Origin: a virus
DNA: 33,466 nt
Virus record (IMG/VR): IMGVR_UViG_3300009507_000004
Span: 1-33,466 of that record
Reading direction: 5' to 3' (one strand)
The notes under the pieces: model-generated
Database searches by the model: none
Told to the model about the DNA's origin: nothing
Seen by the model: the letters and a program-made list of their open reading frames with translations, nothing else
Part shown: one piece after another, positions 411 to 33,466 of the stretch
Layout: each line of letters starts with the position of its first letter
How positions within the stretch are numbered: position 1 is the first letter of the stretch
Translations under genes and position numbers: made by a program

Positions 411-472
411 AATTATATATTTTTACTTATTATTGTAGATAGTAAATCTCTAAATTCTGAAATAAGTCGCTA

Positions 473-631
473 TCACGCCACTTCGCTATCCACAACAACG
501 GGTATATCACATTGCTTTAATTCGTCTAATAAATCAATTACAGTTTCAACGTCAATTACCATTGTTGTACTTCCGTGAGATTCTTGAAATCCGTTTCCTC
601 TTACTCTCTTTTTTAATTCTTCTATATTCAT
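473..631 (-). CDS. Small hypothetical protein (cassette-like region)
   Basis: 52 residues starting MNIEELKKRVRG and rich in acidic residues toward the end. An upstream ATG at 697 is open, but that start would lie inside the preceding gene and translate the intergenic inverted repeat. The ATG at 631 has the A-rich leader (ATATTAAAATG) typical of this genome, so I use it. No family recognised. It is the last ORF of the cassette-like array, 62 bp before the repeat-protein gene. Confidence 0.65.
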   Translation of the reverse strand: MNIEELKKRVRGNGFQESHGSTTMVIDVETVIDLLDELKQCDIPVVVDSEVA

Positions 632-658
632 TTTAATATAATTTTTAGTTAATAATTC

Positions 659-686
659 GCAACGTGGCATACCCAAACACGTTAGC
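659..686. repeat. Inverted repeat between cassette-like ORFs
   Basis: On the minus strand GCTAACGTG and CACGTTGC pair around an 11-base loop, leaving one unpaired T in the left arm. It lies directly after the stop of the 694-897 ORF. It shares the GCTAACG start with the other junctions in this region. Confidence 0.7.
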
Positions 687-693
687 AACAAAT

Positions 694-897
694 TCACTCA
701 ATTTCGGTGGTTTGTTTAGCTTTTATGCACTTGTAACCTTCTCTCTTAAATTTTCGCCAAGAACATCTTTCAGCATCCCATAACTTCATCCACTTTTCAA
801 TTGAAGCGGTTCTTGTTCTTTCAAATGTGTAGGGCAAGATAAATGTTCCGTTCATAGAAGCTATTACCCATCCTTTGTCTATTTCTTTTGATTTCAT
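694..897 (-). CDS. Small hypothetical protein (cassette-like region)
   Basis: 67 residues from MKSKEIDKGWVIAS. An in-frame ATG at 921 is possible, but the ATG at 897 follows GATTTAAACAACGAAAT, almost the same leader as the neighbouring ORF that starts at 1164, so I prefer 897. The C-terminal part (WMKLWDAERCSWRKFKREGY) is rich in tryptophan and basic residues, resembling small phage proteins of unknown role, possibly nucleic-acid binding. No catalytic motif is visible. It is flanked on both sides by TGCTAAC-type inverted repeats. Confidence 0.7.
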   Translation of the reverse strand: MKSKEIDKGWVIASMNGTFILPYTFERTRTASIEKWMKLWDAERCSWRKFKREGYKCIKAKQTTEIE

Positions 898-925
898 ATT
901 TCGTTGTTTAAATCCGTTCATCAGT

Positions 926-978
926 TGCTAACATTATCTATAAATGCATTGAAACGCATTATAGATTTAGCGTTAGCA
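926..978. repeat. Long imperfect inverted repeat between cassette-like ORFs
   Basis: Arms of 22-23 bases pair almost completely: TGCTAAC...ATGC against GCAT...GTTAGCA, with an 8-base loop and one or two bulged bases. One end overlaps the stop codon of the 973-1164 ORF and the other lies just before the next ORF. There is no T-tract, so it does not look like a terminator. It is the best-formed of the seven related junction elements. Confidence 0.85.
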
Positions 979-1164
979 CAAATACTCTGCATAAGTTTCC
1001 ATAAACCAATTCATACCTTGCTCTTCTGCTTCAATTACATATTCCCACACATCTTCTGTAAGGCTTTCTTTTTCGTACATATAATCAGAGTACTTTAAAG
1101 TTTCGTAATCCATTCTTTTGTCTATAGCAGTTTTTGCTATTTGTATCATTTCTTTTTCTTCCAT
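973..1164 (-). CDS. Small acidic hypothetical protein (cassette-like region)
   Basis: 63 residues starting MEEKEMIQIAKTAIDKR and ending with a tyrosine-rich, acidic stretch (EYVIEAEEQGMNWFMETYAE) then YLC. Starting at the ATG at 1242 would read through the previous gene's end and through an inverted repeat. The ATG at 1164 has a good leader (TTTAAAAACGAAAACA). No family recognised. The last codons (TTG TGC TAA) already form part of the downstream inverted repeat. Confidence 0.7.
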   Translation of the reverse strand: MEEKEMIQIAKTAIDKRMDYETLKYSDYMYEKESLTEDVWEYVIEAEEQGMNWFMETYAEYLC

Positions 1165-1204
1165 TGTTTTCGTTTTTAAATCGTTAAAATTTCTGTGTTT
1201 ACAT

Positions 1205-1226
1205 TTAGCGTTAGCACCAATACTAA
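1205..1226. repeat. Near-palindrome between cassette-like ORFs
   Basis: A 22-base near-palindrome, TTAGCGTTAGCACCAATACTAA. Almost all half-site mismatches are transitions, so on the minus strand most positions still pair as G-U. It sits 2 bp after the stop of the 1229-1408 ORF and carries the CGTTAGCA element shared by its neighbours. Confidence 0.75.
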
Positions 1227-1228
1227 TT

Positions 1229-1408
1229 TTATAGTTTTTCAAGAGTAATTTCTAACTTTTCACGCCTTGAATATATGCCTTTATTAAAATCGTTTCTAAC
1301 TAAAAACCATATTAGTTTCCATTTACCAAATATTCTACCTGTATTTTCACCTTCACTCTTATCCCCACTTTCAGAAAAAATAGAGTAACTTAATGTTTTG
1401 TATTTCAT
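1229..1408 (-). CDS. Small basic hypothetical protein (cassette-like region)
   Basis: 59 residues: starts MKYKTLSYSIFSESGDKSEG and continues with an aromatic and basic middle (RIFGKWKLIWFLVRND) ending LEKL. The frame is fully open between two inverted-repeat junctions, and the reading frame starts at an ATG 12 bases from the previous junction, which supports a real gene. No family recognised. It overlaps the spurious long start of the 973 gene. Confidence 0.6.
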   Translation of the reverse strand: MKYKTLSYSIFSESGDKSEGENTGRIFGKWKLIWFLVRNDFNKGIYSRREKLEITLEKL

Positions 1409-1419
1409 AATCCGTACTG

Positions 1420-1435
1420 TGCCTAACCGTTAGCA
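1420..1435. repeat. Compact inverted repeat between cassette-like ORFs
   Basis: TGCTAACGGTTAGGCA on the minus strand: TGCTAAC and GTTAG-G-CA pair, with one extrahelical G and almost no loop. It contains the stop codon TAA of the 1430-1714 gene and ends 12 bases before the next ATG. Confidence 0.75.
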
Positions 1436-1714
1436 ACCATTTATTTTATGGTCAATTTCTTTCAGTTCATCTACTTTTCCCGTCTTTAGTGCTTGTTCAT
1501 AAGCAAAGTCATATAATTCAACCAAATGCTCTTTATACATTTCAATTATTAAAGGTTCGTGCTTATCCGTTGTTTCAGGAAAATATTGCCCTTGCTTTAG
1601 TGCGTTGTCAAAAGCGTTATCTATCCATTCTTGTATGGTCTGACCTTGTGGTATAAACAGTTGGTTATTTCCATAAAGTGCATACATTAGTATTTCAAAT
1701 TGTTCTTTCTTCAT
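1430..1714 (-). CDS. Hypothetical protein (cassette-like region)
   Basis: 94 residues starting MKKEQFEILMYALYGNN. Acidic and mainly alpha-helical in appearance, with regular leucine/tyrosine spacing in the second half (EMYKEHLVELYDFAYEQAL). No signal peptide or membrane segment. The leader AAACGAACTAATTATG supports the start. It ends NGC-stop, where the TGC TAA bases belong to the downstream inverted repeat. No family recognised. Confidence 0.75.
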   Translation of the reverse strand: MKKEQFEILMYALYGNNQLFIPQGQTIQEWIDNAFDNALKQGQYFPETTDKHEPLIIEMYKEHLVELYDFAYEQALKTGKVDELKEIDHKINGC

Positions 1715-1750
1715 AATTAGTTCGTTTTACTTTTGTTACTGTTTAGGTCG

Positions 1751-1779
1751 CCACGCACCATATTCAAATACGTTGTGTG
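1751..1779. repeat. Imperfect inverted repeat between cassette-like ORFs
   Basis: Arms CACACAACGTATT and AATATGGTGCGTGG on the minus strand match at about 10 of 13 positions around a 2-base centre. It follows the stop of the 1785-2063 gene by 5 bases. It lacks the exact GCTAACG string but keeps an AACG core. Confidence 0.55.
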
Positions 1780-1784
1780 TAATG

Positions 1785-2063
1785 CTACCTTTTCCACTCA
1801 TCCCAAGTCATTACCTTAATCATACTTTGAGCTTTTTCAAGTGCATCCCGTTTAATATGTTCTTCAAGGTTTGGTTCTTCTTTAATGGTGTTTTCGTACC
1901 TTCTTCCGTACTTATCCCATTTTTCAGTAATTCTCCATTTTCTTTTCCTTAGCGGTTTTTCCTCTACTACATATCCAACAAATACCACGTTCAAATCAAA
2001 CATATTAAACTGCCAAGTCTGTCTTAAATGCTTGTTTACTTCTTTAGTTATTTCTATTCTCAT
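1785..2063 (-). CDS. Hypothetical phage protein (cassette-like region)
   Basis: 92 residues from MRIEITKEVNKHLRQTWQF. The longer start at 2108 would run through the junction repeat. The ATG at 2063 follows AAAAACTTGATTGAA and is preferred. The middle is basic (KPLRKRKWRITEKWDKYGRR) and the end acidic with paired tryptophans (MTWDEWKR). I recall similar short basic proteins in Flavobacteriia phages, all of unknown function. Confidence 0.75.
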   Translation of the reverse strand: MRIEITKEVNKHLRQTWQFNMFDLNVVFVGYVVEEKPLRKRKWRITEKWDKYGRRYENTIKEEPNLEEHIKRDALEKAQSMIKVMTWDEWKR

Positions 2064-2091
2064 TTCAATCAAGTTTTTATTGTTAATAATC

Positions 2092-2124
2092 GCACTACAC
2101 ACAAGCACGTTTGTAAGTAATTGC
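2092..2124. repeat. Imperfect inverted repeat between cassette-like ORFs
   Basis: On the minus strand GCAATTACTTACA and TGTGTGTAGTGC pair with one bulged base and two or three mismatches. It lies between the stop at 2127 and the ATG at 2063. AAACGTG in the loop recalls the AACG of the other junctions. Confidence 0.5.
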
Positions 2125-2126
2125 CT

Positions 2127-2414
2127 TTATTCGTTAAGGTCTGTTTCATTAAAAAAACCTCGTAATCTGCAATCAGTTCCATTGCCATTTAAAAGACGTT
2201 CTACTTCATCATCTACTTGTTTTTGATGTTTACGTCTTATTTCAGAAATAATAAGTTCTTCAATCATCGGCAACTCCGTACAACAATGTGTATAATTAAT
2301 AGCTTTTAATACATCTTTTGCAATGTCAGTTATGTCTTCTTGTTTAAAAAAAGAGCAGTTATTCTCATTAAATCCGTGTTCTTCAAATATATTTATTATT
2401 TTTTGTAGTTCCAT
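2127..2414 (-). CDS. Hypothetical protein (cassette-like region)
   Basis: 95 residues starting MELQKIINIFEEHGFNEN. It has paired cysteines mid-protein (THCCTELP) and a basic stretch (EIRRKHQKQ), and is otherwise mostly helical and acidic. The leader AACTAAAATTAGCAAAAATG matches the early-gene leader type. It is the first (most upstream) ORF of the cassette-like array. No family recognised. Confidence 0.75.
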   Translation of the reverse strand: MELQKIINIFEEHGFNENNCSFFKQEDITDIAKDVLKAINYTHCCTELPMIEELIISEIRRKHQKQVDDEVERLLNGNGTDCRLRGFFNETDLNE

Positions 2415-2440
2415 TTTTGCTAATTTTAGTTGTTATTCAA

Positions 2441-2470
2441 CGCTACTAATCATACACTTTCAAGTTAGCC
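2441..2470. repeat. Imperfect inverted repeat at upstream edge of cassette-like region
   Basis: GCTAACTT and ATTAGTAGC on the minus strand pair partially. Next to it GCCATAGCTATGTGGC (2468-2483) forms a second small palindrome that covers the end of the 2477 gene. The weakest of the seven junctions, but again with GCTAAC just after a stop codon. Confidence 0.5.
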
Positions 2471-2476
2471 ACATAG

Positions 2477-2725: not shown

Positions 2726-3072
2726 AGTTTACTTTTAATTCTGTTTAATATTTGCTTATACACTAAATCCTTTATTTCTTCAATATTATCGTCTGAAGCC
2801 ATTGAAAATTTATGCTCATCGTTAAATACGTGTATTATCATATCCTTGCCTTTCTTTATTTCTATGGAGATATTATCCATATTATAAATCATTTCCTTTT
2901 GTTCTTCGGTTAATTTATCTGAAGGCAAACCTCTTAATTTTCTTTGGCGTATCATAAACTTTCTGTTTTCATTTTTCCTCAACGAATCAAGTTCAGTATA
3001 ACACGTTTTACAAATTACACCTCTGTTTATTTTAGAGATGCACATTTTACATTTGTATTTATTATTATTCAT
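2722..3072 (-). CDS. Small zinc-ribbon-like hypothetical protein
   Basis: 116 residues. The N-terminus carries two CxxC knuckles (C8-x2-C11 and C20-x2-C23), the pattern of a small zinc ribbon. A basic segment follows (RKFMIRQRKLRG), then an acidic, helical C-terminus. Zinc binding is an inference from cysteine spacing. The ATG overlaps the TGA of the MazG-like gene (3069-3072), and its own TGA overlaps the next start, so these three genes are translationally coupled. The role is unknown; a nucleic-acid-binding regulator would fit. Confidence 0.75.
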   Translation of the reverse strand: MNNNKYKCKMCISKINRGVICKTCYTELDSLRKNENRKFMIRQRKLRGLPSDKLTEEQKEMIYNMDNISIEIKKGKDMIIHVFNDEHKFSMASDDNIEEIKDLVYKQILNRIKSKL

Positions 3073-3521
3073 AGTTTGTTTTTTAATTCCTCAACAAATT
3101 TTCTTAAATCTCTTACAGGTATCTGATGCCTTGACCTAAACTTCTCTGCAAAGTTAGAATACGGACAACCTGTATTTATATTATACGTATCTTCATCTTT
3201 CAATTGAACTCCTGTAATCAAACAAAATTTTGGTTTTGCATATGACAGTATTTCCTCAGGTGTCTCCGAAAGAGATTCAATATCTTCGACATACGTCCGA
3301 AGGATATCTTCTATTTTCAACTCTTGAGCGTCTATTCCTACCTTCTGACCTTTTAATGCTTCTATGTAAAGCGTTGCGTCCATTAGTTCCTCTTGTAAGT
3401 GTTGTAGCCAATCTAATACGTTTAAATCGTTTCTTTCTAGTGTTGTGCCATATTTTTCTATTCCTTCGTTAGAACGCTTCTTATATGCTTCTAACACTTT
3501 GTTTACTATTTTGTCTTCCAT
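3069..3521 (-). CDS. MazG-like nucleotide pyrophosphohydrolase domain protein
   Basis: 150 residues. The N-terminal 60 residues (EKYGTTLERNDLNVLDWLQH, then EELMDATLYIEAL) match the helical phage MazG-like family as I know it, with the acidic EELxDA stretch that would bind metal. MazG enzymes hydrolyse (d)NTPs to monophosphates and are common in phages, where they may adjust nucleotide pools or (p)ppGpp. The C-terminal half has no domain I recognise and carries cysteines (FCLITG, TGCPYS). Lies 3 bp after the gene above it in transcription order and is coupled to the next. Confidence 0.7.
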   Translation of the reverse strand: MEDKIVNKVLEAYKKRSNEGIEKYGTTLERNDLNVLDWLQHLQEELMDATLYIEALKGQKVGIDAQELKIEDILRTYVEDIESLSETPEEILSYAKPKFCLITGVQLKDEDTYNINTGCPYSNFAEKFRSRHQIPVRDLRKFVEELKNKL

Positions 3522-8024: not shown

Positions 8025-8489
8025 TTATAAATTTTTCAGTATTTCTATATTAGCTAAATAAACAGGACTATTATGACTTTCCTTTACTTTTTCTTCTAAT
8101 TCTTTAAGAGTTCCCCAAAAACAACCTGCCTTTACCATCCATTGATTGTCGTGTTTTACACAGTGAACAATTCTTTTAGAAGTGTCGTATGCTGTGAATG
8201 AATAATAATTTTTAGTATATTCTAAATCAGCACCTTCTAAATTAGTACCTTCTAAATTAACACCCTCTAAATTAGCATATTCTAAATCAGCACATCTTAA
8301 ATCAGCACGTCTTAAATCAGCACTTCTTAAATCAGCACTTCTTAAAATATCATCTGTTAAATCAGCATCTCTTAAAATAGCATATCTTAAATCAGCACCT
8401 TCTAAATCAGACCCTCTTAAATAAGCGCCTGTTAAACCCTTTCCTTTGGCTTTTAAAATAACTTCTCCTTTTTTGTTTTTTATCTCCAT
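8025..8489 (-). CDS. Pentapeptide-repeat protein
   Basis: 154 residues. Residues about 18-90 are 14 or so A(D/N)LxX repeats (ADLRS, ADLRR, ADLRC, ANLEG), which fold as a right-handed four-sided beta-helix. Pentapeptide proteins such as MfpA and Qnr mimic DNA and protect gyrase; others have unknown roles. The C-terminal 60 residues (IVHCVKHDNQWMVKAGCFWG) form a small domain that I recall accompanying such repeats in phage proteins. The DNA encoding the repeats is itself a 15-bp tandem repeat (about 8219-8433). It lies one base after its upstream neighbour's region in the operon led by the sigma-like factor. Confidence 0.85.
   Translation of the reverse strand: MEIKNKKGEVILKAKGKGLTGAYLRGSDLEGADLRYAILRDADLTDDILRSADLRSADLRRADLRCADLEYANLEGVNLEGTNLEGADLEYTKNYYSFTAYDTSKRIVHCVKHDNQWMVKAGCFWGTLKELEEKVKESHNSPVYLANIEILKNL
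8219..8433 (-). repeat. 15-bp imperfect tandem repeats in pentapeptide gene
   Basis: The unit reads about CTTAAATCAGCA plus three bases on the plus strand and recurs about 14 times in frame with small changes. It encodes the pentapeptide repeats and offers a substrate for repeat-number change without frameshift. Confidence 0.8.
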
Positions 8490-32804: not shown

Positions 32805-33398
32805 TTAAAACATTCGTATTTGTTGTTTGTGTTCGTTTATTCTTTTCATTGCTTTGTCATAGTATTCTTTATCTAATTCGCAAGCAGTAAGGTCAAACCC
32901 TAAATTATGACAAGCTAAAGCAATAGAACCACTTCCTAAATGGGTATCTAAAATCTTATCTCCTTCTTTTGCGTGGTTCATTAAAAGCCACTCGTATAGT
33001 TTAACAGGTTTTTCCGTTGGGTGTATTCTGTTGGGATTTTGTGGTGCTATCTCAATCCATTTAGAAGTTGTGCCTAAATTTTCTGATAAACTTCCAATCT
33101 CTAACATTGACATTGTAAAATTTATCCCAATAGTTTTTTTCTTCCAAGCAACAAAACCTTTCCATTGTGGTAATTGAAAATTGTTTGCACCCCAAATTAT
33201 TTGCTCTTTACTTACTCTAAATAACTCATTCCAATACTCTTGTGTTGGTCTGCCTTCTAAACTTTTCATTGAACCATTTGCCCTCATATCTTTTGTAGGT
33301 TGGTTTTCATCTCTATAAGGCGGGTCTACAATAGCCAAGTCAAAATGGTTATCTTCATACCTTGCCATAAGTTTCATATTATCTTCGTTTGTTATCAT
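32805..33398 (-). CDS. DNA methyltransferase (adenine-N6 or cytosine-N4), orphan
   Basis: 197 residues. DPPY at 25-28 is motif IV, HPTEKP at 126-131, and DTHLGSGS at 151-158 is the AdoMet-binding motif I, so the order is that of beta-class enzymes. It transfers a methyl group to the exocyclic amine of A or C in DNA. There is no restriction partner nearby. The phage may use it to avoid host restriction. Its start is repeated at position 55 in the left terminal repeat. It follows the repeat protein by 10 bp. Confidence 0.9.
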   Translation of the reverse strand: MITNEDNMKLMARYEDNHFDLAIVDPPYRDENQPTKDMRANGSMKSLEGRPTQEYWNELFRVSKEQIIWGANNFQLPQWKGFVAWKKKTIGINFTMSMLEIGSLSENLGTTSKWIEIAPQNPNRIHPTEKPVKLYEWLLMNHAKEGDKILDTHLGSGSIALACHNLGFDLTACELDKEYYDKAMKRINEHKQQIRMF

Positions 33399-33466
33399 AA
33401 TTGTATTTTTATTGGATTACCTTTCCTTCGTTGGAGTGGTCGCTTTGATAAACATTTCCTTCGTTG
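33344..33466. repeat. Terminal direct repeat, right copy
   Basis: Exact copy of bases 1-123. The right edge stops partway into the 33-bp tandem repeat array. Joining the two copies makes the methyltransferase and the repeat-protein gene neighbours, 10 bp apart, in one minus-strand operon. Confidence 0.95.

Follow-up and report, generated by a model that had tools for sequence, protein, structure and literature searches.

A phage-borne gene-cassette array that very probably belongs to an integron-like recombination system of Flavobacteriaceae

Virulent phages, including Polaribacter phage P12002L, have been described as carriers of attC clusters that lack an integron-integrase (CALINs; Qi et al. 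2023, PMC9892861). One attC site of P12002L was recombined by the class 1 integrase IntI1 in an assay (PMC9892861), and that site may differ from the sites seen here. Integron surveys report very few complete integrons for Bacteroidetes, and Salinibacter ruber carries a complete one (PMC9024848). Here we describe an array of small open reading frames (ORFs) separated by short repeats in IMG/VR virus record IMGVR_UViG_3300009507_000004. The window, which is the whole stretch of DNA analysed, is this 33,466-base record and includes phage portal, tail, and terminase genes. The region is very probably a phage-borne gene-cassette array of an integron-like site-specific recombination system of Flavobacteriaceae, most likely served by a host recombinase acting in trans. 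The evidence consists of a family of related sites, boxes specific to each cassette, a recombinase linked to the arrays, and the exact exchange of one unit between phages. An earlier note on this DNA had likened the region to integron cassettes, and this reading is supported, with corrections, by the site family, the unit exchange, and the linked recombinase. The comparisons it proposed returned a large family of the same sites in Flavobacteriaceae chromosomes and phages, a single cassette with exact repeat boundaries in an unrelated prophage, close relatives of the window phage with none of the array, and a tyrosine recombinase beside the sites in host chromosomes.

As in the phage CALINs, small phage genes lie in the window between attC-type sites and no integrase accompanies them. 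P12002L shares the site family of the window and has a cassette with the matching boxes GTTGGCAGTAGT and ATTACTGCCAAC. Unlike the published CALINs, the window holds mostly half-sites: a CALIN has at least two attC-type sites and no integrase, while here one site is complete, the rest are partial, collapsed, or degenerate, and a recombinase is lacking. Because phage-borne attC clusters have already been published, the window array is a new member. The published study draws no link to host arrays of Flavobacteriaceae, and the terms "Flavobact-" and "Bacteroid-" are absent from its main text (PMC9892861). No description of the chromosomal arrays presented below was found in the open-access literature searched, which left preprints and most subscription papers outside, and a description may exist elsewhere.

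The strongest evidence is the exact exchange of one unit between phages, as read from aligned genomes. Site J6 and cassette G (window 974-681) recur in an unrelated prophage within the Flavobacteriaceae chromosome G124, where 278 of 295 aligned positions (94%) are identical. The homology stops at AAC on both sides, and the flanks, 200 bp each, present 39-40% identity, not above the random value of 43 ± 3%. The G124 region is prophage-like, with primase-sized and terminase-sized genes unrelated to the window phage. Cassette G had no relative in the viral contigs or the phage collection and was found solely through the search of host genomes. The viral contigs L156 and L157 also share one unit, which breaks at AACG and CGTT. 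Moreover, four of five pairs of near-identical duplicate cassettes in genomes G069 and G170 share one adjoining site (97-100%) and not the other (46-90%; random 58%). In these pairs, as in the exchange of unit G, a cassette moved together with one site. A separate observation from the G124 prophage (L351, reverse complement) is a start module, MEFTKQEKSALEW..., that occurs twice, at about 5930 and about 8105, with different sequence after each copy.

These boundaries bear on two other explanations. Ordinary mosaicism of phage gene content, in which short shared repeats recombine homologously or illegitimately and relic integron sites are only hitch-hikers, would agree with the decayed state of most window sites, with the absence of an encoded integrase, with the fusion nature of ORF D, and with the occurrence of ORF C elsewhere without sites. 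It is nevertheless unlikely, since the edges of unit G coincide exactly with the two recombination points and its complete site is conserved along with it, and the unit shared by L156 and L157 breaks in the same way. The repeats could instead be transcript-level hairpins (weak terminators, or processing and stability elements) that separate small operon genes and take no part in recombination. They do stand at the stop codons of neighbouring genes that run in the same direction, some of them form compact stem-loops, and attC sites may themselves be weak terminators (PMC9892861). Against such hairpins as the sole role, and making it very unlikely, are the exchange that breaks exactly at the boxes, the duplicate cassettes that carry one site only, the recombinase linked to arrays, and a complementarity that is specific to each cassette and joins two ends hundreds of bases apart; a secondary role in transcripts could remain.

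A pattern derived from the window leaders (GCTAACG-TATG-GTTGC) matched 86 of 200 Flavobacteriaceae genomes. The matches number about 183, compared with 30 of the reversed control, and often form clusters on one strand. About 70 kb of genome G069 consists of one ORF after another with such sites between them. Scanned across the phylum, the pattern was present in 13 of 198 genomes with about 10 control matches, and the system was not clearly seen outside Flavobacteriaceae. The chromosomal cassettes start with GTT-N6-AGT and end with ATT-N6-AAC, with six-base barcodes (N6) that complement each other. For 111 cassettes from five genomes, the end boxes match at a mean of 6.75 of 9 positions versus 3.35 ± 0.15 when permuted (2000 permutations). 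A scan for exact boxes gave 93 matches versus 1 control in those loci, and further matches in other phages. In integron cassettes, the R' and R'' boxes are complementary because the two make up a single site once the cassette is excised as a circle; the chromosomal arrays likewise consist of single-gene cassettes bounded by sites with complementary R'/R'' boxes. These boxes keep the AAC and GTT anchors and mostly a purine at position 4, positions 5-9 being free (e.g., GTTGTGTGC or GTTACCACA), and they do not follow the RYYYAAC/GTTRRRY core of attC.

The variable boxes also argue against units that are small non-autonomous transposon-like elements, with terminal inverted repeats and mobilised by a transposase. 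As such elements would, the units end in short inverted repeats and occur in replicons unrelated to one another. However, the repeats vary between cassettes yet match within each, and the units lie head-to-tail in arrays at one recombinase-linked locus. Because a transposase with fixed ends would not maintain matching ends specific to each cassette, we consider this origin extremely unlikely.

The 125 complete chromosomal sites measure 121-129 nucleotides from AAC to GTT. Like the sites of sedentary chromosomal integrons, they are hairpins of about 125 nucleotides with an R box, an asymmetric unpaired spacer (a 6/3-nucleotide internal loop), an L stem of about 16 bp, and a variable loop. The strand opposite the ORF folds better in most of 12 sampled sites, and its G-T wobbles are A-C mismatches on the ORF strand. 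By their predicted folds, the chromosomal sites follow the general attC plan in both hairpin architecture and strand asymmetry, and the folded single strand may be the substrate of recombination.

The gene that best matches the integron-integrase model adjoins an array in several genomes. Among the matches listed, recombinase and site are less than 15 kb apart in about 20 of 26 same-contig pairs, by an approximate hand tally. The gene sits at one end of the array and reads toward it. At nine of 15 loci, the first cassette starts no more than about 90 nucleotides after the recombinase stop codon, with boxes that match at 6-8 of 9 positions, and several of these junctions have in common the motif CATATAACCA directly followed by GTT. 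The arrangement of these nine loci indicates a putative attI-like junction in cis, just 3' of the stop codon. In genome G161, two near-identical shorter recombinase copies (C1:2189889-2190797 and 3112748-3113659) each lie beside their own cassette sites, and a longer recombinase lies elsewhere in the same genome. The tyrosine recombinase gp038, beside the array of Cellulophaga phage phi13:2, was rejected as the enzyme of the system; it is of another family and does not match the integron models.

The array-linked recombinases score 212-239 bits with the XerA family model (NF040815), around or above its cut-off of 220. They fall below the TIGR02249 integron-integrase cut-off in all ten array genomes searched, and a limitation of the search is that its control set contained no true IntI genome. 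They also align with PDB entries 5hxy and 4a8e. In the alignment to the Vibrio cholerae integrase structure (VchIntIA, 2a3v), IntIA jumps from residue 182 to 243 while the query moves from 277 to 295, and the array-linked recombinase is without about 43 residues. This segment includes the integron-specific additional domain, and the array-linked recombinase does not present the features of an IntI with that domain. It has, in addition, an N-terminal extension of about 95 residues. A fold model of moderate confidence (mean predicted local distance difference test score 76) gave the integron integrase 2a3v as the best structural match in PDB. From its position beside the arrays, this recombinase would be the catalyst of cassette exchange.

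The chromosomal arrays are comparable to several known systems, each in part. Like the V. cholerae superintegron, they present a recombinase gene, an attI-like junction, and long arrays of one-gene cassettes. They differ from sedentary integrons in the segment missing from the recombinase and its N-terminal extension, in R boxes of 12 nucleotides that have a six-base variable barcode and not GTTRRRY, and in a recombinase gene that reads toward the array. By score and alignment, the enzymes are like XerA and related single Xer recombinases, but unlike XerA their best fold match is an integron integrase and their genes stand at cassette arrays. The Salinibacter ruber integron, set beside them by description, is of the same phylum and was detected by a canonical integron-integrase model; the recombinases of the ten array genomes searched here do not reach the TIGR02249 cut-off. 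With its variable barcoded boxes and an enzyme that has no integron-specific segment, the host system seems to be a new integron variant.

The same sites and boxes occur in Cellulophaga phage phi13:2, Polaribacter phage P12002L, and several uncultivated phages. The ORFs of phage arrays often begin within the hairpin loop and continue across the GTT box, where GTT is usually a codon. Such a loop start in frame across the box is seen in 8 of 11 cassettes from phages and in 14 of 101 same-strand chromosomal cassettes (Fisher p = 8e-5), a comparison that is descriptive because chromosomal cassette genes are mostly on the other strand. A start codon in the loop would yield proteins like that of ORF D, in which different N-terminal modules precede a common C-terminal body. 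Proteins with a loop-encoded N-terminal module and a body were noted at 3400-4250 of L156, at 3870-4160 of L158, and in gp028, gp032, and gp035 of phi13:2 (L159). At the recombination box, their bodies often start with Val-Ser (GTT AGC), and a given body is found with different N-terminal modules.

We propose that the mobile unit is one hairpin site plus one cassette. The complementary 12-nucleotide end boxes (GTT-N6-AGT ... ATT-N6-AAC) would pair in the circular cassette, like R'/R'' of attC. Host chromosomes hold their arrays next to a tyrosine recombinase of the XerA/IntI type, and an attI-like junction follows closely on the stop codon of this gene. The window phage would gain, lose, and swap cassettes, most likely through the host recombinase in trans, and cassettes may move during infection. 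We infer a host enzyme because the phage genome, apparently complete, encodes no such recombinase. More broadly, we find it somewhat probable that Flavobacteriaceae have a widespread, unrecognised integron-like system without canonical IntI, in which an XerA-type recombinase without the additional domain exchanges variable-box cassettes, phages are carriers, and the phage hairpin loop often gives the start codon, with in-frame translation across the recombination point.

Some observations weigh against this proposal. The array-linked type of recombinase was found neither in eight other array-bearing phage records nor anywhere in the window contig; one further array-bearing phage record (the contig of L087) gave a weaker recombinase match. 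The exchange of unit G was phage with phage, and not directly with a host array. ORF B had just a weak match (28%) in 250 Flavobacteriaceae genomes, and ORF F had no match in 250 host genomes. ORF C has an 84% identical homologue without recombination sites at 3222-3500 of L155, a phage-like contig of a Lacinutrix metagenome-assembled genome. Finally, because most of its sites are incomplete, the window array may now be largely immobile.

The features of the array are listed in Table 1. The seven small ORFs at 473-2414 that the earlier note had listed are all on the minus strand, and it was right about the absence of an integrase, about TAA stops inside the repeats (those of cassettes D and F), and about the near-identical leader common to two ORFs (F and G). 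Its inverted repeat at every junction held in part: a sequence of the TGCTAACG type is present at several, but just 930-974 is a complete stem-loop, and part of the meaningful pairing spans the ORF instead of lying at the junction, as in cassettes C and G. Its statement that the repeats depart from the RYYYAAC/GTTRRRY core needs an exception, as R' of cassette E, GTTAGGC, does fit GTTRRRY. Absent from that note were the partial state of most window sites, the matching boxes at both cassette ends, and a host integrase that is not a canonical IntI.

Table 1. Features of the cassette array in the window
Feature	Positions	Strand	Details
Junction J1	2441-2475	minus	R''-like box TATGTGGCTAAC (2475-2464) and first-arm remnant TTGAAAGTGTATGATTAGTAGCG (2463-2441); direct reading
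Cassette ORF B	2127-2414	minus	95 residues; no Pfam match
Junction J2	2094-2120	minus	R'' of B TTACTTACAAAC (2120-2109); R' of C (C)TTGTGTGTAGT (2105-2094)
Cassette ORF C	1785-2063	minus	92 residues
R'' box of cassette C	1772-1783	minus	ATTACACACAAC; complementary to R' of C at 6/6 barcode bases
Junction J3	1750-1771	minus	First-arm remnant GTATTTGAATATGGTGCGTGGC; compare chromosomal GCTAACGTATTGGTATATGGTGCGTTGC
Cassette ORF D	1430-1714	minus	94 residues; fusion
Junction J4, collapsed site	1416-1440	minus	R'' of D ATGGTTGCTAAC (1440-1429), G, R' of E GTTAGGCACAGT (1427-1416)
Cassette ORF E	1229-1408	minus	59 residues
Junction J5	1192-1221	minus	R'' of E ATTGGTGCTAAC (1221-1210) and degenerate remainder
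Cassette ORF F	973-1164	minus	63 residues; stop codon within its R'' box
Junction J6	930-983	minus	R'' of F ATTTGTGCTAAC (983-972) and complete site AACGCTAAATCTATAATGCGTTTCAATGCATTTATAGATAATGTT (974-930)
R' box of cassette G	921-932	minus	GTTAGCAACTGA
Cassette ORF G	694-897	minus	67 residues; 96% identical in prophage of genome G124
R'' box of cassette G	681-692	minus	TTTGTTGCTAAC; 9/9 bases complementary to GTTAGCAAC
Junction J7	658-680	minus	First arm GTGTTTGGGTATGCCACGTTGCG; without second arm
Terminal ORF H	473-631	minus	52 residues
Mobile unit (site J6 and cassette G)	681-974	minus	Common to unrelated prophage, AAC to AAC

The window array is partly decayed: a single site is still complete, and two cassettes retain an intact pair of boxes. 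The sites comprise one complete (J6, conserved in the G124 prophage), four first-arm remnants (J1, J2, J3, and J7), one collapsed (J4), and one degenerate (J5); no R'' box was found after ORF H. Full six-base barcode pairs are kept in cassettes C and G. The ends of cassette C, TTGTGTGTAGT (2104-2094) and ATTACACACAAC (1783-1772), pair in the format of the 111 chromosomal cassettes, and those of cassette G pair as GTTAGCAAC (932-924) with GTTGCTAAC (689-681). The R' box of G recurs as GTTAGCAACTGG in chromosome G069. The boxes of cassette E match save small changes. The first-arm remnant of J1 resembles the chromosomal arm GCTAACGTG.TTGTGTATGATTAGTTGC; J2 has, at 2108-2105 between its two boxes, GTG and then C replacing G; and J4 reads TGCTAAC-G-GTTAGGCACAGT. 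A profile of chromosomal first arms had its best window match at J7 (686-657, E = 2e-4), and 0 of 20 shuffles exceeded 8 bits. GTTAGCA/TGCTAAC is present in eight copies in the whole window versus 4.3 ± 1.8 by chance, and five of the eight lie within 755 bp. Since the whole-window count is barely above chance, the clustering of the repeats matters and not their number; the count, not significant alone, was rejected as evidence. A scan of viral contigs for TGCTAACG..GTTAGCA was also rejected, the matches being mostly chance ones within coding sequence, and duplex energies of leader and tail RNAs were too noisy to be used. In virus record L003 (6753-6962), tandem and inverted 11-mers GCGGTGCTAAC are superficially like the window repeats and are arranged differently.

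The N-terminal half of ORF D matches viral contigs L156 and L157, and the C-terminal half matches L158 and gp035 of Cellulophaga phage phi13:2. For the C-terminal domain, 300 genomes searched gave one doubtful match. The same domain was seen as the tail of larger proteins, without sites, in two large phages (L162 and L163, near 3001-3117).

The large terminase of the window phage is about 52% identical to terminases of Flavobacterium psychrophilum phages. An exact direct repeat of 123 bp stands at the two contig ends (1-123 = 33344-33466). Because of these identical ends, the contig is probably a complete Flavobacteriaceae phage genome, circularly assembled; in agreement with a circular genome, relatives run from the array side directly into the terminase genes of the other end of the window. 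Three close relatives (exonuclease 96-98% identical) are without the array, and between the same flanking genes they have other small genes or a methyltransferase. By this comparison of gene order, the array is a variable insertion. Directly downstream of it, a minus-strand ORF (66-410) has a run of 11-residue repeats (GNVYQSDHSNE type, a 33-bp minisatellite), and a tandem array with a 15-bp period lies within a coding region at 8193-8462.

Complete integrons are scarce in surveys of Bacteroidetes (PMC9024848), whereas 86 of the 200 Flavobacteriaceae genomes scanned match the site pattern, and some of the arrays span tens of kilobases. Should the role of the linked recombinase be confirmed, integron-style gene capture could do without the integrase domain now held to be its hallmark. 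The system would also open up a large reservoir of cassettes that have yet to be characterised, and the phage array would be a route for single cassettes between hosts. The barcodes of the cassettes make past exchanges readable from sequence alone.

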